NCBI GenBank assembly: GCA_035536915.1
Contig: DATLNE010000002.1
Span: forward strand, 1 to 34,629
Length of the DNA: 34,629 nucleotides
From: Acidimicrobiales bacterium
GTDB taxonomy: Bacteria > Actinomycetota > Acidimicrobiia > Acidimicrobiales > JAHWLA01
Direction of reading: 5' to 3'
Below are positions 823-31,826 of the stretch, one piece after another; position 1 is the stretch's first letter; each line of letters starts with the position of its first letter. A program made the translations under genes and the position numbers. A model generated the notes under the pieces. That model was not told where the DNA came from. It searched no databases and worked only from the letters and a program-made list of their open reading frames with translations.

Positions 823-3768
823 TCAACCCGCCGTGCGCCCGGCGGGCTCCAGGTGTTGCCGACATGACTCGCCGTCGACTGCCTTCCGCGTGCAGGGGGT
901 GCCGGCGAGGGTGATCGTCTTGCAACGCTCGTCGACCTCCGACGCCACCGGGCCGGACGGGCGGCGCCCTGCGCGACGCTTTCTCGTTGCCCCAGCACCG
1001 TTCCTGGCACCCGAGCGGTCGATGGCGACGAGGTCCCCTCCGAGGTAGGAGTCCACCACCGTTCGATCGGCCCGCACCTCAGCCGGCGAGCCCTCGGCGA
1101 TCACCCGGCCTTCCGCCATGGCCACGACACGATCGCTGATGCGCATGACGAGGGGGATGTCGTGCTCGATGATGAGGATGCCGGCTCCCAACGCCTTTCC
1201 GGCAGCTAGCAGCAGTTCACCCATCGCCTCCGTCTCGCGCTGTGCGATCCCCGAGGACGGCTCGTCGAGCAGCAGGATGCGCGGCTGCATGGCCAGCAAG
1301 CACGCCAGCTCCGCGATGCGCCGGGTGCCGGTCGACAGTTCCCGGTTCTGCTTCTCTGCGTAGGCATCGAGGCCCATGAGGTGCACGACCTCGCGCGCCT
1401 GCTCGAGCTTGCGACGGTCGCGGGAGCGCAGGCCGATCACTGCCTCGTGCAGCTTGGTGGGGGCCATCCGCTCCATGGCGAGCTGGACCGTCTCCAACAC
1501 CGTCAGCGTGTCGAACAGGGCGCCGTCCTGAAAGGACCGGATGAGCCCCAGGGAGGCCCGGGCCTCAGGCGACAGCGCGGTCACGTCGCGCCCCTCGAAG
1601 GTGACGGTCCCCCGGTCCGGCTTCACGAAGCCGCTGACCACGTCGAAGAGCGTCGTCTTGCCTGCGCCGTTGGGGCCGATGAGCCCGATGACCTCGCCCG
1701 CGCCGACTCGCAGCGACGCCCCTCCCACCGCCTGGACCCCGCCGTAGGCCTTGGCGATCCCCTCCACGACCAACAGCGACGTCGACCCGGTTTCGGGGGC
1801 AACGGCCTGCTCTCGCACGACCGGGAGGACGGTCGGGGTCGGAGCAGGCGCCTCGACCGGGGCTTCGTCGGGAGGCAGGTGCCGGGTGAGGTAGCCGACG
1901 ATCCGGTCCCGCACGGGCCGGAGGAGTTGCGGGATCCCGCCCGGCGCGTACAGCACGAGCAGCAGCCAGCCGAGGGCAGTACCGGCCAGGCCGGCCGAAT
2001 CGAGGGGGAGAAAGCTCGGGACCCCGATGACGTACATGGCGCCGAGCAGCGGGCCCACCAGGAGGGACAGGCCGCCCACGACCGCGACAGCCGCCACCTC
2101 GATGCTCTGCTGCACGCCGAAGTCCGTGGGCTGGATGCGGGCCAGTGCGTGCGCGATCACTGCACCGCCCAAGCCCGCGATCACGCCGCCGAATGCAAAC
2201 GCCTGGAGCTTCCGTCGCGTGGCGGGGACGGTGAACGCACGGGCCGCTTCCTCGTTGTCGCGCAGCGCTACCAACGACTGGCCGAAGCTCGACTGCCGCA
2301 CGTTGCGGGTGAGCCACAGCGCGAGGAGGAGGACTGCGAGGGCCACGTAGTAGTAGCGACGACTGCTGTCCAGCACGAAGGAGCCGATGATCGGCTTCCC
2401 GGTGTCGACCCCGTCTCCCATCGCCCACGACTGCTGGTACAGCCACGCCTGGGCCATCAAGGCGAACGCCAACGTGGTGACGCTGAGCATGAGGCCTCGG
2501 ATGCGGAGAGCAGGGAGGCCGATGAGCACGGATGCCAAGGCTCCGATCACGGCGGCGACGGCGAACGAGAGCAAGTAGTTCTCGGTGTGGACGATCACGT
2601 GGTGCGACGCCACGGCCCCGATGCCCGCGGTGGCCATCTGGCCCAACGACAGCTCGCCACCCAGGCCGGTCAGGATCGTGAGCGAGAGGGCGACCGTCGC
2701 GACCGCGAAGATCGAGATGAGGTTGCCCGCCGACTCGTTGGAGATGAACGCGGGTAGCAGCAGGGCCACCACCGCGCCCGTGACCGCGAGCCCGGGCCCC
2801 ATCAGGCGCACCGCAGGGACGGCCCGGAGTCGGGCCGGGAGGGGTGGCCACGCCTGCACGGTGGCCCAGCTGCTCCGCTCCCGCTCCCGCAGGCCGTGGC
2901 GGTGCTGCGACAGGAGGGCACCGAGGATCACCACGAACATGAGCAGTTCGACGGTCCCGCCTTGGCCGTAGTTCGAGAAGATGAGTACCTCGACGACGCC
3001 GAGTGCGAGCCCCGCAGCCAGCGCCTTCGGCAGGTTCGCCATGCGGGCCACGACGGCCCCGACGAGTCCCCGCAGGAGGAGGCCGGGGCCGAGCTGGTCG
3101 ACGGGCAGGAACCCGAGGGTGGGGAAGATGAGGACGGCCGTGAAGGTGGCCAGGGCTCCGGCCGCGCCCCACGAGAGCAACGACATGCGCCCGGGCGAGA
3201 TGGCGGTCAGGCGAGCGCCGTCGGGGCTCGATGCCGCCGCCCTGATGGCAATCCCGTATGGGGAGTAGCGCAGGAAGGCGAACAAGCCGGCGACGAAGGC
3301 CGGACTGAGCAACAGCATGGCCATGTGGGCCCGGGTGAGGACCATCTCGCCGATGCGCAACGTGGGCAACCCCGGCGGGAGGGGGTACTGGTTGCCGGAG
3401 CCCACGTGTGTGAACAGCGAGATGACGAGGATCAGGAAGAACTGTGCGAAGCCGAGGGTGGCGACCACGCTCATCGGCTTGGGCACGCCCCGCAGGCGGC
3501 GAACCGCCGCTGTCTCCACCACGCATGCGGCGGCGGCTCCGACGGCCAACGCGACGACGAAGGCGATCCAATACGGCAGGTTCCAACTCAGGACGGCCAC
3601 GCCGAGCACGGCGGCGCCGAAACTGCCCACCGCCCCGTGCGCCAGGTTGAGCACACGGCTCGACTGGTACACGAGCACAAGCCCGATGGCCAGCAGTCCG
3701 TACGTGGTTCCGGTGATGAGCCCGAGGGCGAGCATCCCGGCGGTGACTTCGACCCCGAACAGCGTCAT
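823..3768 (-). CDS. LivH-LivM-LivG fusion: ABC transporter permease/permease/ATPase
   Basis: This 981-residue protein joins both membrane permeases and one ATPase of a branched-chain-amino-acid-type (HAAT) ABC importer. Residues 1-290 are LivH-like (NLAHGAVGSF at 41-50). Residues about 320-620 are LivM-like (GELSLGQMATAGIGA near 371). Residues about 664-910 are a LivG ATPase with Walker A GPNGAGKTT (698-706), signature LSTGT (811-815, instead of LSGGQ), Walker B ILLLDE (831-836) and a switch His at 869. A basic linker then leads to a tail with C949, C959, C969 and H972, spaced like a small zinc-binding CCCH motif; that reading is inference. These parts are normally three separate proteins. 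The ATG at 3768 overlaps the stop of the upstream MFS/LivF gene by four bases (ATGA), so the two are probably translationally coupled. The transported substrate is not revealed by the sequence. Confidence 0.93.
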   Translation of the reverse strand: MTLFGVEVTAGMLALGLITGTTYGLLAIGLVLVYQSSRVLNLAHGAVGSFGAAVLGVAVLSWNLPYWIAFVVALAVGAAAACVVETAAVRRLRGVPKPMSVVATLGFAQFFLILVISLFTHVGSGNQYPLPPGLPTLRIGEMVLTRAHMAMLLLSPAFVAGLFAFLRYSPYGIAIRAAASSPDGARLTAISPGRMSLLSWGAAGALATFTAVLIFPTLGFLPVDQLGPGLLLRGLVGAVVARMANLPKALAAGLALGVVEVLIFSNYGQGGTVELLMFVVILGALLSQHRHGLRERERSSWATVQAWPPLPARLRAVPAVRLMGPGLAVTGAVVALLLPAFISNESAGNLISIFAVATVALSLTILTGLGGELSLGQMATAGIGAVASHHVIVHTENYLLSFAVAAVIGALASVLIGLPALRIRGLMLSVTTLAFALMAQAWLYQQSWAMGDGVDTGKPIIGSFVLDSSRRYYYVALAVLLLALWLTRNVRQSSFGQSLVALRDNEEAARAFTVPATRRKLQAFAFGGVIAGLGGAVIAHALARIQPTDFGVQQSIEVAAVAVVGGLSLLVGPLLGAMYVIGVPSFLPLDSAGLAGTALGWLLLVLYAPGGIPQLLRPVRDRIVGYLTRHLPPDEAPVEAPAPTPTVLPVVREQAVAPETGSTSLLVVEGIAKAYGGVQAVGGASLRVGAGEVIGLIGPNGAGKTTLFDVVSGFVKPDRGTVTFEGRDVTALSPEARASLGLIRSFQDGALFDTLTVLETVQLAMERMAPTKLHEAVIGLRSRDRRKLEQAREVVHLMGLDAYAEKQNRELSTGTRRIAELACLLAMQPRILLLDEPSSGIAQRETEAMGELLLAAGKALGAGILIIEHDIPLVMRISDRVVAMAEGRVIAEGSPAEVRADRTVVDSYLGGDLVAIDRSGARNGAGATRKRRAGRRPSGPVASEVDERCKTITLAGTPCTRKAVDGESCRQHLEPAGRTAG

Positions 3769-6068
3769 CGCGGTGCGGCCTTCTCCTCTGCGTGACCGAC
3801 GATGCCGGCGGTACCGCCGGCGAACGCCCCGGCGGCACCGCCGAGAAACACGGACCGGAGCAGGTCGGCGCGCTCGAGCAAGTCGGAGGACTTGCCGTCG
3901 AAGCGCACCTGGCCCTTCTCCATGAAGTAGGCGTGGTCGACGAGCGACAGGGCGATGTTCACCGATTGCTCCACCAACACCACCGCGGTGCCGCGGCCGT
4001 TGATCGTGCGGACCATGGCGAGCAGCTCTCCGACCACCTTGGGGGCGAGGCCCAGTGAGAGCTCGTCGATCAGCAGCAAGCGGGGCTGGGCGATGAACGC
4101 CTTGGCCAGCCCGAGCATCTGTTGTTCGCCACCCGACAGCGTCGATGCCCGCTGGTCGCGCTTAGATGCCAAGGCCGGAAACGCCTCGAAGGCAATGTCG
4201 AGGTCGGCCTCGACGCTGCGCGCCTTGCGACCGTGGGCGTTTCCGAAGGCGCGAAGGTTCTCGACCACGGTCAGGGGTGCGAAGACGGCTTTGCCACCAG
4301 GGACTTGGAGGATGCCGAGGCGCACCCGGCGCTCGGCGTCCAGGTACGTGATGTCGGCACCGCGGTAGCGGACGCTCCCGCGGTTCGGGATGTTCAAGCC
4401 CGACACCGCCCGCAGGAGGGTCGACTTCCCGGCCCCGTTGGTGCCGAGGAGGGCGACCATCTCACCGTCGTCGACCGTGAAATCGACCCCGAACAGCACC
4501 TGAAGGCGCCCGTAGGCCACATCGAGGTTGCGGCACGAAAGCATGGGAAGTTGCACGCCGCGCGCGCGGAGCGTCGACAGCTGCTCTTCCTCGACGATCT
4601 CGTCGAGCAGCCGATCGAAGTCGCCGTCGATGACCGAGGCCGAGCTCCGCAGGACAGCCGCAGCCACGAGGCCGGGCACAGCCAGCACGGCGATGGCGGT
4701 GCCTGCGCCGAAGCGACGGTCGAACCCGTCCAGCAAGAGCAGGCCGCCGAAACCGCCCACCGCCGAGAGGAAGATGCCGGCCAGCGCCGCCGCGTGCGGC
4801 CGCATCGTCGGCCGGACGACCGACAGCATCGCGGCATGGAGGACAGGCACCATCAGGGCGAGCAGGGCGCCCGACACGCAGAACAACAGCACCACCAAGG
4901 CGAACGACGGCATCAGTGTCGCGACCGCCATGGCGATCACGCCGGCTTGGAGGAACATCGCGCCCCGGCGCACGAACACCTTGGGGTCACGACGGAAGTC
5001 GGCCTCGCCCCGGCGGGCGAACAGCGACAACGAAACCAGCGAGCCCGCTGCCGAAGCGGCGAAGAAGATGCCTCGCCCACCAGGACCGACGCCCCACCGG
5101 TCGTCGAGATAGAAGAACAGGTAGGTGTACAGCGGGACGATGAGCATGCCCATGGTGGCGTACACGGCGAGCATGCGACGCACCGTCGGGATCAGAAACA
5201 GCCGTCGCACGATCTCGAAGAAGCCGAGTCGTACGTCGTCGCCGTCGATCGTCGACGTGGCCCCGTCGGTCGCCTCCCGCACTCGATCACGGACCTTCTC
5301 GACATCCCATCGCCCGTAGCCGGGATCGCGGAGGCGAACGGCGAAGACCGAGGCGGCGACCGATACCACGCCCATGACCACGAAGACGCCACGCCACGTG
5401 AAGCCGAGCAGGGCGGTGAGCGCCGCCACCAGCAACGGGGCCAGGATGTTCCCCACGCTGTCGGCTCCCCGGTAGAACGACAGCACCCGGATCCGTGCCT
5501 CCGGCGGATAGCTGTCGAGCAGCAGCGGGGGGTGCAAGGCGCGCACGGAGCCGGTGCTGGCGCCGTCGGCCACGAGCACACCGGTCAGGGCCGAGCCGCT
5601 GCGCACGAAGCCGCTGCCCAAGGTGGCCACGCTCCAGGCGAACGCGGTGGCCACGCTGAGCACGGCCCGTCGGGCGCGTCGTTGCACGAGGGCGGCCATG
5701 GGCAGGGCAGCCACCATGATCGCCAGCGTCTTGAAGGCCACGATGGCGCCAAGGCTGCTCCGGCTGATCCCCAGCGAGTCACTGATCTCAGGGCCGAGCA
5801 CGAGGAAGGCGTAGCTCTGGAACTCGTCGATGATGACGAGCAGGCTCAGCGCCGCCAGTGGGTACCAACCGATGCTCGACTTCGCCATTGCCTCGCGCAA
5901 CGGCGCGGGGTCTCCTGCCTGGTGCACCCCCAAGGCGTCCCGTGCCGTCGCCCGCAGGCGCTCGCGAGCGGCATCGACGTCGACGACCTCGTCGGGGGCC
6001 GTGGTGGACGGGCTGCGACGCCGACGGCGACGCGCGGGGGTTGCTTCTGCGTCTGTCAATGCGGTCAA
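3765..6068 (-). CDS. MFS transporter-LivF ATPase fusion
   Basis: The protein has 767 residues from a TTG start at 6068, which follows GAGGA by seven bases. An ATG at 6110 would overlap the upstream gene by 32 bases and is less attractive. Residues about 68-476 form a multi-spanning major-facilitator-like domain (many hydrophobic helices, basic loops such as QRRARRAV). Residues about 508-746 form a LivF-type ATPase with Walker A GTNGAGKST (542-550), signature LSGGEQQ (644-650), Walker B LLLIDE (664-669) and LivF-like LVEQS. The N-terminal 60 residues are charged and probably cytoplasmic. The gene lies between the binding lipoprotein (10-base gap) and LivHMG (4-base overlap), so the ATPase half presumably completes that importer. 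What the MFS half does is unknown: a second transport path, a regulator of the complex, or a degenerate anchor. Confidence 0.9.
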   Translation of the reverse strand: MTALTDAEATPARRRRRRSPSTTAPDEVVDVDAARERLRATARDALGVHQAGDPAPLREAMAKSSIGWYPLAALSLLVIIDEFQSYAFLVLGPEISDSLGISRSSLGAIVAFKTLAIMVAALPMAALVQRRARRAVLSVATAFAWSVATLGSGFVRSGSALTGVLVADGASTGSVRALHPPLLLDSYPPEARIRVLSFYRGADSVGNILAPLLVAALTALLGFTWRGVFVVMGVVSVAASVFAVRLRDPGYGRWDVEKVRDRVREATDGATSTIDGDDVRLGFFEIVRRLFLIPTVRRMLAVYATMGMLIVPLYTYLFFYLDDRWGVGPGGRGIFFAASAAGSLVSLSLFARRGEADFRRDPKVFVRRGAMFLQAGVIAMAVATLMPSFALVVLLFCVSGALLALMVPVLHAAMLSVVRPTMRPHAAALAGIFLSAVGGFGGLLLLDGFDRRFGAGTAIAVLAVPGLVAAAVLRSSASVIDGDFDRLLDEIVEEEQLSTLRARGVQLPMLSCRNLDVAYGRLQVLFGVDFTVDDGEMVALLGTNGAGKSTLLRAVSGLNIPNRGSVRYRGADITYLDAERRVRLGILQVPGGKAVFAPLTVVENLRAFGNAHGRKARSVEADLDIAFEAFPALASKRDQRASTLSGGEQQMLGLAKAFIAQPRLLLIDELSLGLAPKVVGELLAMVRTINGRGTAVVLVEQSVNIALSLVDHAYFMEKGQVRFDGKSSDLLERADLLRSVFLGGAAGAFAGGTAGIVGHAEEKAAPR

Positions 6069-6078
6069 GGCGGGTTCC

Positions 6079-7572
6079 TCAGGGCTGCACGTCGACGAGG
6101 CCGCCCGCATATCGGAAGCACTGGCATCCGGCGTCGAAGCGGGCGTAGCGGACCTTCGACGGACCGATGCCCGCCGGGGCGATCTTGGTCCCGAACGTCA
6201 GGGAAGGGACGAAGCTCGTACCGAGCTGCGACACCGCTGTGTTGAACGCTGTGGCATTCAACGCCGTGGCCCGGTCGAAGCCGGCCTTCAGGAACATGAC
6301 CTGGTCGCAGAAGGCGAGGTTGTAGCGGAGCGAGTTCGAGGTGTGGAGCTGGATGCCCTTGGCGGCGTAGATCGCCAAGCACTGCTTGACCGTGGCGTTG
6401 TGGTCCGTCGACTTCACGTCGTCGATGGGCCGGTGCCCGACGCCGACCGCCCCTCCCCCGTTGTCGAACTGGCTGCCCACGTTCGCCGACGAGAAATCCC
6501 ACAGCGAGGAGCTGTTGAGCCCGTACTGGAGGTCGTGGTACTGCGCCTGCTCGGCGGCCAGGCCGAACAGCACGACCATCTGCGACTTGAAGTCGAGGAT
6601 CAGGAGCTTCTTCACCCCGGCTCGCCGGAAGTTGGTGACGGCGACGCCCGGCCACCGTGCGTCCGAGAGCCCTGAGCCGGCCACTTCCTCGGTCACCGAC
6701 AGGCCGTAGTGGGCCAGGCGCGCCTTCAGTACGGAGGCCGCCCGTGCGTGGGTCGGGCTGTCGTAACGGAGAAGCCCGATCTTGGCGCCGGGAGTGAAGT
6801 AGCCCTGCGCCGCCAACCCGTCGACGTAGGCCTTGGCGTTGCGGGTCTGGTCCATCCACGCCGGCGCGTAGTACCAGGGGGCGTACCGCCTGAAGTCCTC
6901 CTCGTCGCCGATGGTGCTGTCCTCGTGGAGCAACATCGTCTTCTTGTTGGCGAGGCAGGAGACGAGCGACGTGGCCTGGTTGTTCACGATGACGGCGAGC
7001 ACCTCGTTGTCACCGGTGAACTTGTTGCACCACTCGGTCTCGTCCACCCGCTCGACGGCGTGGATCACCGCTTCGACTGTGCGTCCCCTGATGCCGCCGT
7101 TGGCGTTGATCCACTCGACCATGGCCTGCGCCGAGCGCTCCTGCGGCCCGCTGTCGATGTTCTTCAGGCCAGATCGTGCATAGGCGTCGTTGGCGACACC
7201 CTCCTTGGTGGCGATGAACCCGATCTTGACCTTGGTGTCGGTGACGCCCTTGCCGTAGGGCTTGCCCGTGAAGCCGCCTGGTCCTGTCGGTCCTGTCGGT
7301 CCTGTCGGTCCTGTTCCCTGCGTGCCGGGCGCCGTCCCGGTCGGGCCGGTCCCCGTGGGCCCGGTGCCCGGACCGAGTGCCGTCCCGGCCGAGGATGCCG
7401 TCGTCTCCGTCGTGACGTCGATGTCGCCGTCGCCGTCGAGGTCGACCCCTGTGGCGTGCTCACCGGCTTCGAGGACATCGTCGCTCTGGCGAGCCCAAGG
7501 GGTCGTCGACGCGCACCCCGCCGTGAGCACCAGCGGTAGGAGGAGGGCCAAGACCCGCCGGGACATGTTCAT
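6079..7572 (-). CDS. Periplasmic-binding-type lipoprotein with collagen-like linker
   Basis: The substrate-binding component (type 1 periplasmic-binding fold, LivK/amide-type) of the adjacent importer, 497 residues. The N-terminus MNMSRRVLALLLPLVLTAGC is a lipoprotein signal with the lipid-anchor Cys at residue 20. The ATG at 7572 is chosen because GGGGAG lies seven bases upstream; longer in-frame starts would put the signal peptide inside the protein. A DLDGDGDIDV segment (calcium-loop-like DxDxDG) and a Gly-Pro-Thr-rich linker follow, then the ligand-binding domain beginning near KVKIGFIATKEGV. The linker is encoded by a 9-bp tandem repeat. The linker may act as a spacer from the membrane or cell wall; the calcium loop is inferred. 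It is the first gene of the operon; a putative operator lies 73-88 bases upstream of the start. Confidence 0.92.
   Translation of the reverse strand: MNMSRRVLALLLPLVLTAGCASTTPWARQSDDVLEAGEHATGVDLDGDGDIDVTTETTASSAGTALGPGTGPTGTGPTGTAPGTQGTGPTGPTGPTGPGGFTGKPYGKGVTDTKVKIGFIATKEGVANDAYARSGLKNIDSGPQERSAQAMVEWINANGGIRGRTVEAVIHAVERVDETEWCNKFTGDNEVLAVIVNNQATSLVSCLANKKTMLLHEDSTIGDEEDFRRYAPWYYAPAWMDQTRNAKAYVDGLAAQGYFTPGAKIGLLRYDSPTHARAASVLKARLAHYGLSVTEEVAGSGLSDARWPGVAVTNFRRAGVKKLLILDFKSQMVVLFGLAAEQAQYHDLQYGLNSSSLWDFSSANVGSQFDNGGGAVGVGHRPIDDVKSTDHNATVKQCLAIYAAKGIQLHTSNSLRYNLAFCDQVMFLKAGFDRATALNATAFNTAVSQLGTSFVPSLTFGTKIAPAGIGPSKVRYARFDAGCQCFRYAGGLVDVQP
7281..7315. repeat. 9-bp tandem repeat encoding Gly-Pro-Thr
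   Basis: The unit gtcctgtcg is repeated almost four times (7281-7289, 7290-7298, 7299-7307, then a partial copy). On the minus strand it encodes the GPTGPTGPTG stretch of the binding lipoprotein's linker. Such repeats can expand or contract in multiples of three codons without breaking the frame. Confidence 0.85.
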
Positions 7573-7644
7573 GGTGCGGCTCCCCGTGACAACGCCGACC
7601 GTCCCGCGCAACGGTCGATGGTCCGAACTCCCCCTCGGTCGAAG

Positions 7645-7660
7645 AGTAACGCTCGTTAAC
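7645..7660. promoter_or_regulatory. Putative operator, copy 2 (before binding lipoprotein)
   Basis: AGTAAC-GCTC-GTTAAC, with an inner TAACG/CGTTA palindrome. It lies 73 bases upstream of the binding-lipoprotein ATG in the divergent region shared with the 3-hydroxyacyl-CoA dehydrogenase gene, which has its own copy. Confidence 0.7.
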
Positions 7661-7772
7661 ATCCGTGACAAGGGCCATTTTCCGCTGATAACCCAAATCC
7701 GACGCGATGGGGCACACTGGGCAGACAGCCTCTAGGCCTTGACGGCGCCAGACCTTCGCGGGAACACTGTTA

Positions 7773-27088: not shown

Positions 27089-29053
27089 TTAGGTCGAGGC
27101 CGCGCGACGCGCTCGCCGTGCGGCGATCCGGCGCCTTGTGTCGGCCACGTTGTGCCGGACGGCGCCGACGATCCCCTCAGGGTTGGCGACAGCAGTGAGC
27201 AGCAGGCCGAGGCCGCCCACCAGCAAGTAGTAGCGCCCGACGTGGATGTGGCGGTCGGAGATCACGAAGCCGATCCCGAGGGGGGCGAACGTCCCGGCCA
27301 CCAAAGCCCCGGTCACACTGGTGATGCCGCCCAAGTAGGCGAAGGCGAGGTAGGCGAGTCCCACGAGAACGCCGAACGACTCGACAGAGAGTTGGCCTCG
27401 GCTGTATCCGACGAACGCTCCCGCGATGCCCGCGATGAAACTGGCCAGTCCGAAGGCAACGAGCTTCACGGCCGCCACGTTGACCCCGAGCGCCGCCGCA
27501 GCCCGCTCGTTCGAGCGCACGGCGAGCATGGTGCGCCCCGTCGCGCTCCGGATGAGGTTGGCCACCACCACGCCCAGAATCGTGAGGACCACGAGCACGA
27601 GCAGGCCGAAGCGCAGACGAACGATGTCGGAGCCTTGCCTGATGCCGAGGTCGAAGCCCAACAACGAGGCGTCGGCGATGGGGCTGCCGCTGGGAGGGAT
27701 CAATTGCGGGTTGCGGAACACGAACTGCTCGATGGCGACCGCTCCGGCCAAGGTGACGACGGCCAACTGCGCCCCGCGGATGCGGACGGCAGGCACGCCG
27801 ACGAGGACACCGAGGACAGCCGCGGCGCCTGCGGCCAGAAGCATCGACAGGGGGAACGGCACGCCGCCGTCACTTGCCACCTTGGAGAGCGTGAACCCGG
27901 CCACGCCCGCCAACGCCGTCTGGGCCAGCGATATCTGGCCCACCAACCCGGTGATGACGACGGAGGAGAGGGCGGCCATGGCGGCGATCATCGAGGTGAT
28001 GATCCCGAAGCGGTAGCCCCCGTCGGTTATGGCGAGGAGCACGACGCCGCCGACGAACGCGGCGGCCAGGAGGGCGGGCCGGACCGTCGGCAGGACCACC
28101 TCGGGAAGCGCCAGCGCGTCGCCCTCGCCCCGTTGGGGCAGGCGCTTGCCCAGCAGGAACAAGGCCAGCACGACGAACAGGAAAGGCACGGCATCGCCTA
28201 AGCCCGAGGCCGCCCACGCCGGCCACCACGGCTTCGAGCTGACCAGCGTCACGATCGACTGCACGGCGCCCAACGCCAGCCCGGCGGCACAAGCGCCGCC
28301 CAACGAGGTCAGGCGGCCGAACAGAGCGGCAGCCAACGCGGGCACCACGAACAGCGTGTAATTGGTGGGGTTGATCCCGGTGGTGGGAGCCACGAGCGTG
28401 ATCATGAAGCCGGTGATCATCGACGACAGCACCCACGTCGTCGCCGCCAGCCGATCGGGGCTGTAGCCGAGGATGGTGGCGGCTCGCTCGTTGTCGGCGG
28501 CGGCTCGCGTGGCGGTTCCGCTCAACGAGAAGCGGAACCACGCCCACATGGCGGCAGCCACCGCCAGTGCGATCACGGTCAGGTAAATGCGGTCGCGCGG
28601 GACGGACAGCGCACCCAGCTCCAGCGTCTCACTAGGGACGATCGACGCGGGCAACCGCGCCTCGGTGCCGAAGCGCAGAGCTACCAACGCCTGCATGGTC
28701 AACATGAGGCCGACGCCGGCGACGACCTTGCCGAGGGCGGGAGCCTGCCGGAGCGGCCGGAACACGAGCAGGTGGGCGAGCAACCCGAGGAGCCCGGCGG
28801 AGGCCACCCCCAAGGCGAGGGCGGCGGCGGCGTGCACGTCGTCTCCCAGATGCACGCGCGCCGCCACGGGCAGCACGTAATCACCGGTGGTGCGCAGCTC
28901 GTCGTAGACGTAGGCGGCCCACACGCCGAGCGCCCCTTGGGCGAAGTTGATGATGCCCGACCCCTTGTACGTGACGACCAGCCCGGTGGCGATCGCCGCG
29001 TACACCGAGCCGGCGCCGAGGCCGAGCAGGGCAAAGGCGAAGTAGTCCTTCAC
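27089..29053 (-). CDS. LivH-LivM fusion: ABC transporter permease pair
   Basis: A 654-residue fusion of both permeases of a second branched-chain-amino-acid-type importer. Residues 1-300 are LivH-like (INFAQGALGVWAAYVYDEL near 35). Residues about 340-640 are LivM-like (VGQISLAQTALAGVAG, then RSATGRTMLAVRSNERAAAA). The C-terminal tail is short and basic. No ATPase domain is attached, unlike the fusion at 823. The GTG at 29053 has GGGGAG seven bases upstream and follows the binding-protein stop by 36 bases. LivG, LivF and the binding protein precede it on the same strand, so a full transporter is encoded here. Confidence 0.93.
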   Translation of the reverse strand: MKDYFAFALLGLGAGSVYAAIATGLVVTYKGSGIINFAQGALGVWAAYVYDELRTTGDYVLPVAARVHLGDDVHAAAALALGVASAGLLGLLAHLLVFRPLRQAPALGKVVAGVGLMLTMQALVALRFGTEARLPASIVPSETLELGALSVPRDRIYLTVIALAVAAAMWAWFRFSLSGTATRAAADNERAATILGYSPDRLAATTWVLSSMITGFMITLVAPTTGINPTNYTLFVVPALAAALFGRLTSLGGACAAGLALGAVQSIVTLVSSKPWWPAWAASGLGDAVPFLFVVLALFLLGKRLPQRGEGDALALPEVVLPTVRPALLAAAFVGGVVLLAITDGGYRFGIITSMIAAMAALSSVVITGLVGQISLAQTALAGVAGFTLSKVASDGGVPFPLSMLLAAGAAAVLGVLVGVPAVRIRGAQLAVVTLAGAVAIEQFVFRNPQLIPPSGSPIADASLLGFDLGIRQGSDIVRLRFGLLVLVVLTILGVVVANLIRSATGRTMLAVRSNERAAAALGVNVAAVKLVAFGLASFIAGIAGAFVGYSRGQLSVESFGVLVGLAYLAFAYLGGITSVTGALVAGTFAPLGIGFVISDRHIHVGRYYLLVGGLGLLLTAVANPEGIVGAVRHNVADTRRRIAARRARRAAST

Positions 29054-29089
29054 CGCTACGCTCCCCTGCTCGGCCTCGTCATCCGCACC

Positions 29090-30307
29090 TCAGGCTGCAG
29101 GTGCGAACGAGGACACGTCGACGAAGTCCTTGGAGACCGGGCGCATCACGCCCCCCTTGGCCTGGTACACCAAGGCGCTTGCGGCGCACGACGACTGGCC
29201 CTTCCACGCCGAGCCGTCACAGGTGAGCGTCCCGCCCATAAAGGCCGGGAAGCCCTTGGTGGCGCGAAGGGCGGCGAGGATCTTGGGCCCGGTGATGTCG
29301 CCCTCGATGGTGGCGAGGATGCGCCCCAGGTCCATGACGGCGGCGAAGAGCACCTGCCCGGTTGTGATGGCCTTGGCCTCGTTGCCGCTGGCCTTCATGG
29401 CGTCGAGGTACTCGCGGATCTCCTTGGCCTTGGCGGGAGGCGCGTCGTCCGGGGCGCTCGCCCACCAGGTGTCGGCGTAGGCGTAGACGCCATCGGCCTT
29501 GGCGCCGACCGTCTTGGCGAAGTCGAAGCAGGACCCGGCGAACACGTCACCCTTGAACGACGTGCCTCGTACGGCGTTGATCATCGAGGTGCACATGGCC
29601 TCCGACAGGCCGGCCGTGCCGATCACGTCGGGCTTCTCGGCCATTGCGGTGTTCACCAGCACCGTGAAGTCGGGTGACGACGGGCTGAAGTAGACCGGCT
29701 TGACGGTGATGCCGAGCTTCTTCGCCACCGGCTCCAAATTGTTGGTGAAGTACTGACGCGAGTTCGGCCCGTCGATCGACAGGTACACCAGCTTCTTGGC
29801 GCCCTTCTCGGAAAAGAACTTCAGAGGCACCGCGGCGATGGCCGGCAGCGCCGACCCGAGGAAGACGGCGTCGGCGCTTGTCTGCTGCTGGGGCCCGAAC
29901 GGCACATGGCCGACCAGAGGGATCGACGCGCTCTTGAGGATGGGCAGCATGGCGTCGGTGCCGATGCCGATGCCCTCGAGCACGGCGACGACCTTGGCCT
30001 CGACGAACTTGTTGGCGCAATCGATGGCCTTCTCCGGCGAGCCGTCCACGTCGCAGCGGACGAGCTTGAGGGGACGTCCCTTCACGCCGCCGTTCTTGTT
30101 GAAGTGGGCTACGCCGACCTCGGTGGTGATGCGAGTGTCGGGGAACGACAGGGTGCCTCCCTCGGCGTTCACAAACCCGACGGGGATCTCCGGCCCGGTC
30201 GTCGCACGAGGTGCGTCGGCCGTGGGGCTGGTCTTGTCGTCCCCACATGCCGACCCGAGCAAGAGAGCGGCGGCGGCCACGACCGCACCCGCGCGTTTTC
30301 CGAACAT
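29090..30307 (-). CDS. Periplasmic-binding-type lipoprotein (second Liv system)
   Basis: A 405-residue substrate-binding lipoprotein of the LivK class. The N-terminus MFGKRAGAVVAAAALLLGSAC is a lipoprotein signal with the anchor Cys at residue 21, followed by a Thr/Pro/Ala-rich spacer. The binding domain begins near PVGFVNAEGGTLSFP and includes FNKNGGVKGRPLKLVRCD, typical of this family. The ATG at 30307 has GGAGG seven bases upstream; a longer start at 30424 would swallow two operator sites. It is separated from LivF by 113 bases containing a double operator, so it can be controlled independently of LivG and LivF. Its ligand is unknown. Confidence 0.93.
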   Translation of the reverse strand: MFGKRAGAVVAAAALLLGSACGDDKTSPTADAPRATTGPEIPVGFVNAEGGTLSFPDTRITTEVGVAHFNKNGGVKGRPLKLVRCDVDGSPEKAIDCANKFVEAKVVAVLEGIGIGTDAMLPILKSASIPLVGHVPFGPQQQTSADAVFLGSALPAIAAVPLKFFSEKGAKKLVYLSIDGPNSRQYFTNNLEPVAKKLGITVKPVYFSPSSPDFTVLVNTAMAEKPDVIGTAGLSEAMCTSMINAVRGTSFKGDVFAGSCFDFAKTVGAKADGVYAYADTWWASAPDDAPPAKAKEIREYLDAMKASGNEAKAITTGQVLFAAVMDLGRILATIEGDITGPKILAALRATKGFPAFMGGTLTCDGSAWKGQSSCAASALVYQAKGGVMRPVSKDFVDVSSFAPAA

Positions 30308-30326
30308 CCAGTGCCTCCTATTGGCT

Positions 30327-30342
30327 GTTAACGCTGGGTGAC
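30327..30342. promoter_or_regulatory. Putative operator, copy 11 (proximal half of tandem pair)
   Basis: GTTAAC-GCTG-GGTGAC, a weaker copy that directly abuts the stronger copy at 30343, with no base between them. It lies 20 bases upstream of the binding-lipoprotein ATG. Confidence 0.5.
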
Positions 30343-30358
30343 GGTAACGGCTGTTAAC
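30343..30358. promoter_or_regulatory. Putative operator, copy 12 (distal half of tandem pair)
   Basis: GGTAAC-GGCT-GTTAAC, a strong copy. Together with 30327-30342 it makes a 32-base tandem of two operator-like palindromes before the binding-lipoprotein gene. Confidence 0.72.
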
Positions 30359-30420
30359 TAACCGGTCAAGGACGGAACTCACATGCCGAAAAATGACTAG
30401 ACCGGTTTGTGAACGCGGGA

Positions 30421-31119
30421 TCAACCGAGATAGCCCGCCTCAAGCAGCGACCGGTTGCGCCGAAGTTCTTCACTGGTCCCCTGAAGGTGCACTCGGCCGT
30501 GGGCGAGCACGCAGGCCCTGTCGGCGACCTGGAGGGCGAGGCGCACATGCTGCTCCACGAGGAGGATGCCGACATTGCGCTCGGCGACGATGCGCCGGAG
30601 CACCGGAAGGAGCGACTCGACGACGACCGGGGCCAAGCCGAGGCTCATCTCGTCCACCAGCAGCAGCTTCGGGCGAGTGGCGAGTGCCCGTGCCAACGCC
30701 AGCATCTGCTGCTCGCCCCCGGAGAGCAGCCCGGCCCGTCGACCGAGCAACGGCTCCAATGCCGGGAAGTACTCGAGCACTTCCTCGGCGACCCGGCGAC
30801 GACGGCTCCCCAGCCACAGGTTCTCGCCCACGCTCAGCCCGGAGAACAACGATCGGTCCTCCGGCACGTAGGCCAAGCCACGACGGGCAAGGCGGTTCGC
30901 CGGGGTGTGTCCCGACGCTCCCAGGACGGTGACGGAGCCGCCGAGCGGCTCGAGCACGCCCGCGACGGTGAGCAAGGTGGTGGTCTTGCCCGCGCCGTTG
31001 GGGCCAAGAAGGGCCACGATCTCGCCCGCATCCACGTGAAGGTCGAGGTCGCGGATAACCGGCACGCCCGCGTAGCCGGCCAACAGTCCCTGCACCTCGA
31101 GCACCCTGCTGCTGTTCAT
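30421..31119 (-). CDS. livF: LivF-type ABC transporter ATPase
   Basis: A 232-residue ATPase of the second branched-chain-amino-acid-type importer. It contains Walker A GPNGAGKTTT, the LivF-type LAYVPEDRSLFSGLSV loop, signature LSGGEQQMLA, Walker B KLLLVDEMSLGLAP and ILLVEQHV. The ATG at 31119 overlaps the LivG stop by four bases (ATGA), the common LivG-LivF arrangement. Length matches the family. It is followed by the double operator and the binding lipoprotein. Confidence 0.93.
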   Translation of the reverse strand: MNSSRVLEVQGLLAGYAGVPVIRDLDLHVDAGEIVALLGPNGAGKTTTLLTVAGVLEPLGGSVTVLGASGHTPANRLARRGLAYVPEDRSLFSGLSVGENLWLGSRRRRVAEEVLEYFPALEPLLGRRAGLLSGGEQQMLALARALATRPKLLLVDEMSLGLAPVVVESLLPVLRRIVAERNVGILLVEQHVRLALQVADRACVLAHGRVHLQGTSEELRRNRSLLEAGYLG

Positions 31120-31826
31120 CGGGGAGCGCCGTCGAGCTCGCCGGAACCGAGGTAGGCAGCCACCACCGCCGCGTCGCTCCGCACCTCGGCGGGCGAACCG
31201 TGGGCGATGAGCTTGCCGAACTCGAGCACGTACACCCGATCGCACACCGAAAGCACAAGGCTCATGTCGTGGTCGACGAGCAACAGGCTGATGCCGCTGT
31301 CGACGACCGCGCGCAGCCGCTTGCCCAGCTCCTCGCTCTCCGCCGTGTCGAGGCCTGCGGCGGGCTCGTCGAGCAGGAGGACGGACGGCCGCATGGCCAG
31401 GGCGCGCGCCACGCTGACGTGCTTGCGGCGACCCTGGGAGAGCTCCGACGGGCGCCGGTCGGCCACGTCCTCCAGTTCGAGCAACCCCAGGGCCCAGTCG
31501 ACCTGCGCGAGGTCACGCCGGCGGTTCGGTCGCACCAGGTCACCGAACACCGACCACCAGCGAGTCTGTTCGACGGCAACCAGCACGTTCTGGCGAACGG
31601 TGAGGTCCTCGAACAGTTCGAGCGACTGGAACGTACGGCCCAGGCGAAGCCTGGCGCGCCCGTGGGTCGTAGCGCGCGTGATGTCGCGCCCCTCCAGCAC
31701 GACCTGCCCCGCGGTCAGGTGCGTGAGGCCGGTGACCGCGTCGATGCAGGTGGTCTTGCCCGCACCGTTGGGGCCGATGAGTCCGACGAGCTCGTGGGGC
31801 CGGACGTCGAACGAGACGCCGTCCAC
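31116..31826 (-). CDS. livG: LivG-type ABC transporter ATPase, start uncertain
   Basis: An ATPase with Walker A GPNGAGKTTC, the LivG-type RTFQSLELFEDLTV loop, signature LSQGRRKH, Walker B VLLLDEPAAGLD and switch LLVDHDM. From the GTG at 31826 it has 236 residues, but the first strand expected of LivG is missing. The same frame continues upstream as LLDVKGLAVHYGGVRAVDG with no ATG, GTG or TTG codon there. In another frame a GTG lies inside the operator (31910-31925) and runs into a six-base C-run (31880-31885); one extra base there would join it to the conserved N-terminus. Possible explanations are a sequencing error, a real frameshift, or a rare start codon. It is the first gene of the second transporter unit. 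Confidence 0.82.
   Translation of the reverse strand: MDGVSFDVRPHELVGLIGPNGAGKTTCIDAVTGLTHLTAGQVVLEGRDITRATTHGRARLRLGRTFQSLELFEDLTVRQNVLVAVEQTRWWSVFGDLVRPNRRRDLAQVDWALGLLELEDVADRRPSELSQGRRKHVSVARALAMRPSVLLLDEPAAGLDTAESEELGKRLRAVVDSGISLLLVDHDMSLVLSVCDRVYVLEFGKLIAHGSPAEVRSDAAVVAAYLGSGELDGAPR

Follow-up and report, generated by a model that had tools for sequence, protein, structure and literature searches.

An MFS carrier domain fused to the LivF-type ATPase of a Liv-type ABC importer in Actinomycetota

Introduction

Can one machine house both the nucleotide-binding domain (NBD) of an ABC importer and a secondary carrier, and would the carrier in such a union move, sense or merely hold? ABC importers and carriers of the major facilitator superfamily (MFS) are taught as separate answers to membrane transport. 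In an actinobacterial clade of Liv systems the two form a single chain, in some cases with the MFS domain ahead of both ATPases and up to eight times per genome, which makes the question testable. The locus studied here lies in a stretch of 34,629 nucleotides of an Acidimicrobiales bacterium (GCA_035536915.1, contig DATLNE010000002.1), called the window throughout. An earlier note, made from the letters of the window, had read one of its genes as an MFS permease (about residues 68-476) continued by a complete LivF ATPase that should serve LivHMG, and had suggested that the union may couple two kinds of transporter or hold the ATPase at the membrane. We examined this gene, its neighbours and its relatives in public genomes, and we propose a model for the hybrid protein.

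Results

The fusion gene and its two domains

The fusion gene (3765-6068, minus strand) encodes 767 amino acids when translated from TTG 6068 and contains no internal stop. This first codon is preceded a few bases 5' by GAGGA, overlapping the stop of the binding-protein gene; an in-frame ATG at 6110 would give 781 amino acids and an overlap with that gene, and translation may start at either codon. Pfam finds MFS_1 on residues 75-441 (103.5 bits for a cut-off of 33.4) and ABC_tran on residues 527-669 of the same chain (94.1 bits for a cut-off of 25). The AlphaFold2 model, computed with 61 aligned relatives, has a mean pLDDT of 91.0 and a pTM of 0.88, and it places transmembrane-length helices from 69 to 476, followed by one more helix (480-502) and, from 510, the NBD. 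The MFS domain of 12 helices (residues 69-476; 4641-5864, minus strand) is defined by the MFS_1 match, these helices and PDB matches. It is joined by the predicted cytoplasmic linker helix (residues 480-502; 4563-4631, minus strand) to the LivF-type NBD (residues 507-745; 3834-4550, minus strand), which is recognized by Pfam, by LivF/UrtE-type models and by its match to 1ji0 of Thermotoga, the nearest solved NBD in sequence (2.7e-51). UrtE and LivF are the best NBD models, with 176-187 bits over about residues 508-744, under their equivalog cut-offs.

The Walker A motif GTNGAGKST (residues 542-550; 4419-4445, minus strand) and the ABC signature LSGGEQ (residues 644-649; 4122-4139, minus strand) lie where the earlier note had put them, and the end of Walker B with the D-loop reads DELSLGLAP (residues 668-676; 4041-4067, minus strand), a hallmark of this LivF clade. 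The NBD motifs are intact: G542, G547, K548, S645, G646, G647, D668 and E669 are invariant in the 61 aligned rows (61 of 62, L057 with its split MFS match being omitted from the alignments). In the linker, Asp483 is nearly invariant in the conservation scan of the aligned fusions, from which the short MFS rows L151 and L178 were omitted. The presence of an MFS domain and a LivF ATPase in one polypeptide is therefore borne out by Pfam, the AlphaFold2 model and the stop-free frame, and the concern that the MFS half might prove unrelated to MFS is answered by its MFS_1 score and its 12-helix fold.

A profile made from 61 MFS halves matches bacterial 6e8j at 7.9e-47, human Spns1 at 1.4e-34 and E. 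coli DgoT at 1.5e-29. In structure, the MFS half matches Spns2 (Z 43.3, rmsd 2.7, 394 aligned), SV2A (Z 41.8) and Spns1 (Z 41.6). These matches were picked from the Foldseek top 1000; the Foldseek ranking by itself showed NBD matches exclusively, as these took up the whole list. In the ten members tried, every NCBIfam MFS model stays below its cut-off, including TIGR00893 (D-galactonate type), the best one for the window's MFS domain. The MFS half thus appears nearest in sequence to Spinster-type carriers, and we call it Spinster/ACS-like without claiming membership.

The operon and the rest of the window

The fusion gene sits between the gene for a Liv-type binding protein and a LivH-LivM-LivG gene. 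The binding-protein gene (6079-7671, minus strand), apparently the first of the operon, encodes a Peripla_BP_6 protein (38.6 bits for a cut-off of 31.7) with a lipoprotein-like N-terminus. The LivH-LivM-LivG gene (823-3768, minus strand) overlaps the end of the fusion gene by 4 bp (ATGA) and encodes a three-domain fusion of 981 amino acids with BPD_transp_2 in two stretches, ABC_tran and BCA_ABC_TP_C (Pfam); the LivG model reaches 199.6 bits on this chain, under its equivalog cut-off. The Liv/HAAT-type features of the locus are a pair of BPD_transp_2 permease domains next to NBDs of the LivG and LivF types, and a type I binding protein (Peripla_BP_6). We infer that the LivF ATPase serves LivHMG, an assignment already made in the earlier note and almost certainly right for the adjacent LivHMG chain.

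Both neighbours have features of their own. In the N-terminal part of the binding protein (about 7260-7540, minus strand), a lipoprotein-like start, LTAGC, is separated from the binding domain by a long linker of Gly/Thr/Pro repeats (GPTGTGPTGT...). The LivHMG chain ends, after LivG, in a Cys/His tail of the C-x-G-x-x-C-x-C-x-x-H type (about 826-1000, minus strand) that has no Pfam match; the pattern occurs in 5 of 165 LivG-bearing ORFs (the window, L050, L051, L056 and L102), and the MFS-LivF of these systems belongs to the window's clade. The remainder of the window is mostly devoted to acyl-CoA metabolism (acyl-CoA ligases, dehydrogenases and hydratases). It also holds a second, conventional Liv operon without MFS (27089-31826, minus strand), made of a LivH-LivM chain, separate LivF and LivG and its own binding protein (29090-30424), which is the natural comparison for the fusion system.

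Recurrence of the fusion

When identical sequences are dropped, 129 distinct MFS-LivF fusions were read from public genomes. Same-strand LivH/LivM lies near 128 of them: no more than 1 kb away in 117, no more than 4 kb away in 127, and 4,044 bp away in one. The sole exception sits at a contig end. The junction is constant, the gap between the MFS and LivF profile ends being 2-6 amino acids in 132 of 139 fused ORFs (duplicates kept). Two main architectures were seen by domain searches of 60 regions: MFS-LivF with LivH-LivM-LivG, and MFS-LivF-LivG with LivH-LivM. The fusion is present in the isolates Kribbella pittospori (L113), Nonomuraea sediminis (L181) and IMCC26207 (L177), in three single-contig genomes (G003, G007 and G055) and in the complete record of Embleya sp. 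NBC_00888. The search for the same fusion in other actinobacteria, proposed in the earlier note, thus finds it across Actinomycetota, in Liv operons wherever the contig allows a view. The window comes from a draft assembly of 54 contigs, a circumstance in which two genes could have been joined by faulty assembly or annotation; since the fusion recurs in so many distinct forms, in isolates, single-contig genomes and a complete record, this explanation is refuted and has a negligible probability.

Searched with the whole fusion protein, the window's genome and 39 relatives give many full-length matches. In the 84,980 species genomes, the query was the LivF C-terminal half only (patterns DELSLGLAP and VEQS.N.A), because choosing loci by their MFS half was to be avoided. 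The best 80 of 576 loci were analysed, some of which share contigs with loci of the earlier series (e.g. L115 and G001:C138); by the rank table, 77 belong to Actinomycetota, two are without ranks and one is a Rokuibacteriota MAG. An MFS domain directly precedes LivF in 54 of these best 80 loci and is absent in 26, among which L134, L145 and L179 start at a contig end, where its presence is not readable, and L158 (the Rokuibacteriota MAG, 4.4 kb) has a broken LivF match. The same LivF clade is therefore found without MFS in at least 22 of the best 80 loci, where LivF forms a chain with LivG, shares a single LivH-LivM-LivF-LivG chain or occurs alone. The clade often has its subunits fused, with LivH joined to LivM, LivF to LivG, or all four together.

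The window's genome carries eight copies of the fusion, 40 BPD_transp_2 matches and about 20 Liv systems. The MFS profile has 11 matches there at E up to 1e-20: the eight fusions, a strong and unfused-looking one in a 503-aa frame (C6) and two weak ones. No place in 313 plasmid records covers 80% of the window protein, and a query from group A2 of the fusions retrieves one full-length fusion from plasmid records, in Embleya; close relatives of the window protein are absent from the plasmid set, and the fusion family is present in it. The phage collection gave no match to the MFS half, and the viral contigs no relative of the fusion protein.

Gene context

In regions of at least 12 kb, a substrate-binding protein (SBP) is found in 98 of 113 fusion loci (duplicates kept), in 14 of the 15 Liv loci that lack MFS and in none of 20 control regions, which were hand-picked positions in the same kinds of genomes. 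These counts suggest that the fusion systems are complete importers of the SBP-dependent kind. Acyl-CoA neighbours were considered as a hint to the substrate and rejected: counted with profiles, they accompany 36 of the 113 fusion loci and 8 of the 20 controls (Fisher p 0.61). Against the MFS-free Liv loci the profile count is 36/113 versus 1/15 (p 0.065), where a coarser earlier count, 39/113 versus 0/15, had hinted at enrichment. Because acyl-CoA genes are not commoner than in the control regions, no substrate is drawn from them.

Evolution of the two halves

In the LivF tree (143 rows), the window protein falls in an all-fused clade of 20 rows (support 96) within a clade of 25 rows (92). 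In the MFS tree (132 rows), the window's clade, A1 (24 rows), forms one branch (support 100) with a stem of 0.78, and the stem of the matching 25-row clade in the LivF tree measures 0.11, which suggests that it was the MFS half that shifted. The presence of MFS takes at least 9 changes on the LivF tree; both trees are quick, without bootstrap and with many weak forks, and neither their deeper branching nor the number of gains and losses is certain. The MFS halves of the fusions diverge to 20% identity with that of the window.

An MFS-only profile (E up to 1e-60, four candidates scored per genome) has at least 43 matches in 19 of 396 genomes of the phylum. Among the 43 matches listed, 39 are fused to LivF and four stand alone (L191, L199, L207 and L210), with no Liv domain within the regions examined around each. 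In the MFS tree, L199 (7837-9780) is the one unfused member of a 4-row set (96), and L191 (8147-11200) lies inside a 58-row set whose other rows are all fused (99); L207 and L210 pair with each other farther away. Since L191 and L199 are nested among fused rows, release from the fusion is the simplest reading, and such nested relatives suggest an MFS module able to work alone. A divergent MFS-LivF fusion, L209 (8287-10530), groups with L207 and L210, has a gap of 43 amino acids between the profile ends, and is possibly an independent fusion event.

Key residues and selection in the MFS half

Motif A and an Arg in TM4 form a common signature of MFS proteins, not required of all of them, with roles in gating and proton coupling. 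The motif A position of the window protein reads QRRARR (residues 129-134; 5667-5684, minus strand), with Gln where Asp is usual. The motif-A Asp (129) is absent from all 24 rows of A1, 20 of which have Gln, and is found in 21 of 22 A2 rows and in 59 of 60 rows of group B. At position 165 in TM4, 17 of 22 A2 and 55 of 60 B rows have Arg, and the commonest residue in A1 is Leu (14/24). The window protein itself, with Gln129 and Leu165, does not show the canonical signature. The A1 rows have instead Asp168 in TM4 (21/24), and they retain Asp81 in TM1 (22/24) and His179 (24/24). The loss of the motif-A Asp and the TM4 Arg and the new TM4 Asp suggest that the coupling of the MFS half is altered in A1, and groups A2 and B retain both residues, as working carriers would.

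Conservation in A1 differs slightly between cavity helices (2.83 bits) and outer helices (2.67 bits), and the cytoplasmic loops are among the best-conserved segments of the MFS half. The MFS half is under purifying selection, with pN below pS in 9 of 9 pairs (pS is partly saturated, and the pN/pS values are rough), and is therefore no relic.

Discussion

In the model we propose, the hybrid protein is the LivF subunit of an SBP-dependent importer of the Liv/HAAT type, and a Spinster/ACS-like MFS carrier has become a permanent N-terminal membrane module of this subunit, serving as a second path in a 1:1 ratio. We give this reading a probability of about 0.45. The complex would consist of the SBP, the LivH-LivM-LivG chain and MFS-LivF, with one MFS domain to an importer, since the locus encodes a single LivF and a single LivG. 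Together with LivG, the LivF half would act on LivHM in the way usual for Liv importers. The MFS half would be a second route that needs no ATP, open to the same class of substrates or to a related metabolite (release or exchange of a surplus or end product is one example) and adjoining the importer in a fixed ratio. In favour of the model are the recurrence of the fusion beside LivH/LivM, the constant junction, the SBPs at most fusion loci, the intact NBD, the MFS fold, the motifs retained in A2 and B, the nested stand-alone relatives and the purifying selection. Other observations speak against it: the motif losses in A1 would fit a non-transporting role equally well, the cavity helices are only slightly more conserved than the outer ones, the acyl-CoA neighbours hint at no substrate, and many Liv systems of the same clade do without MFS. 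A bolder form, in which the ATP cycle of LivF would set the conformation of the MFS half and one complex would run ATP-driven import and a gated MFS flux in step, is unlikely.

The strongest rival is that the MFS half does not transport and serves as a membrane anchor, a scaffold or a ligand sensor that holds LivF or adjusts its activity. It is a serious possibility, if a less probable one than the model above. The disappearance of the motif-A Asp from all 24 A1 rows, the loss of the TM4 Arg from most of them and the long MFS stem (0.78) speak for it, and the near-constant linker length and the well-conserved cytoplasmic loops agree with it; regulatory domains fused C-terminally to MFS proteins have also been reported (PMC10710835). 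Against it, groups A2 and B retain the usual motifs, stand-alone relatives exist, and a 12-helix carrier fold would be a costly anchor for a LivF that LivHM holds anyway.

Direct use of the ATPase by the carrier, either as a primary-active MFS or through conformations locked to the NBD cycle, is improbable. The junction looks rigid (helix 480-502 and the gap of 2-6 amino acids), the pTM of 0.88 extends across both domains, and the nearly invariant Asp483 and the conserved cytoplasmic loops point the same way. However, LivHM, the usual partner of such NBDs, is present in 128 of 129 cases, and direct drive is less likely because LivF already has this client; to our knowledge, an ATP-driven MFS has no precedent. 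A neutral merger of neighbouring genes, with coupling limited to co-expression, is given an equally small chance. It would accord with the frequency of subunit fusions in the clade and with the 9 changes on the LivF tree, by which the MFS domain is not indispensable, but one junction has been maintained over lineages whose MFS halves fall to 20% identity, and 39 of the 43 listed MFS-profile matches are fused.

The components of this system are familiar. The Liv/HAAT branched-chain amino acid ABC importers (TC 3.A.1.4), such as E. coli LivKHMGF, likewise have an SBP, two BPD_transp_2 permeases and LivG- and LivF-type NBDs, here too in one apparent operon. In contrast to E. coli, LivF bears a 12-helix MFS domain and LivH, LivM and LivG form one chain. 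The canonical LivF form DEPSLGLAP is replaced here by DELSLGLAP, and DEPS forms occur in 3 of 12 unfused LivF rows. The Spinster carriers (Spns1, Spns2 and bacterial 6e8j) and the ACS-type DgoT share the fold and the best profile matches, but they have no ATPase domain, and the window's clade lacks the motif-A Asp. MFS proteins with C-terminally fused CBS, CNBD, PAS and UspA domains have been surveyed (Willson et al. 2019, cited in PMC10710835); in both cases a cytoplasmic nucleotide-binding domain follows the MFS domain, the difference being that the domain added here is a working-type subunit of another transporter. In Rhodococcus, the ABC importer CamABCD and the MFS carrier CamM take up cholate metabolites again and so serve one catabolic pathway (PMC8399759); by that description, they are two separate transporters.

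What is new is that the two stand in a lasting union, that this union is widespread and that one clade has lost the motifs. A literature search found no description of an MFS-LivF fusion, a mention in Willson et al. 2019 or Swain et al. 2012 being possible, and the hybrid is a real and apparently undescribed way of building a transporter. The natural series of fused, MFS-free and MFS-released forms, with motif A kept or lost, supplies ready comparison proteins. The MFS-free side of the clade also includes chains in which LivH, LivM, LivF and LivG are all joined (L072 1130-4963, L144, L152, L170, L175, L176, L186 and L188), so that the whole membrane machine of an ABC importer is a single polypeptide.
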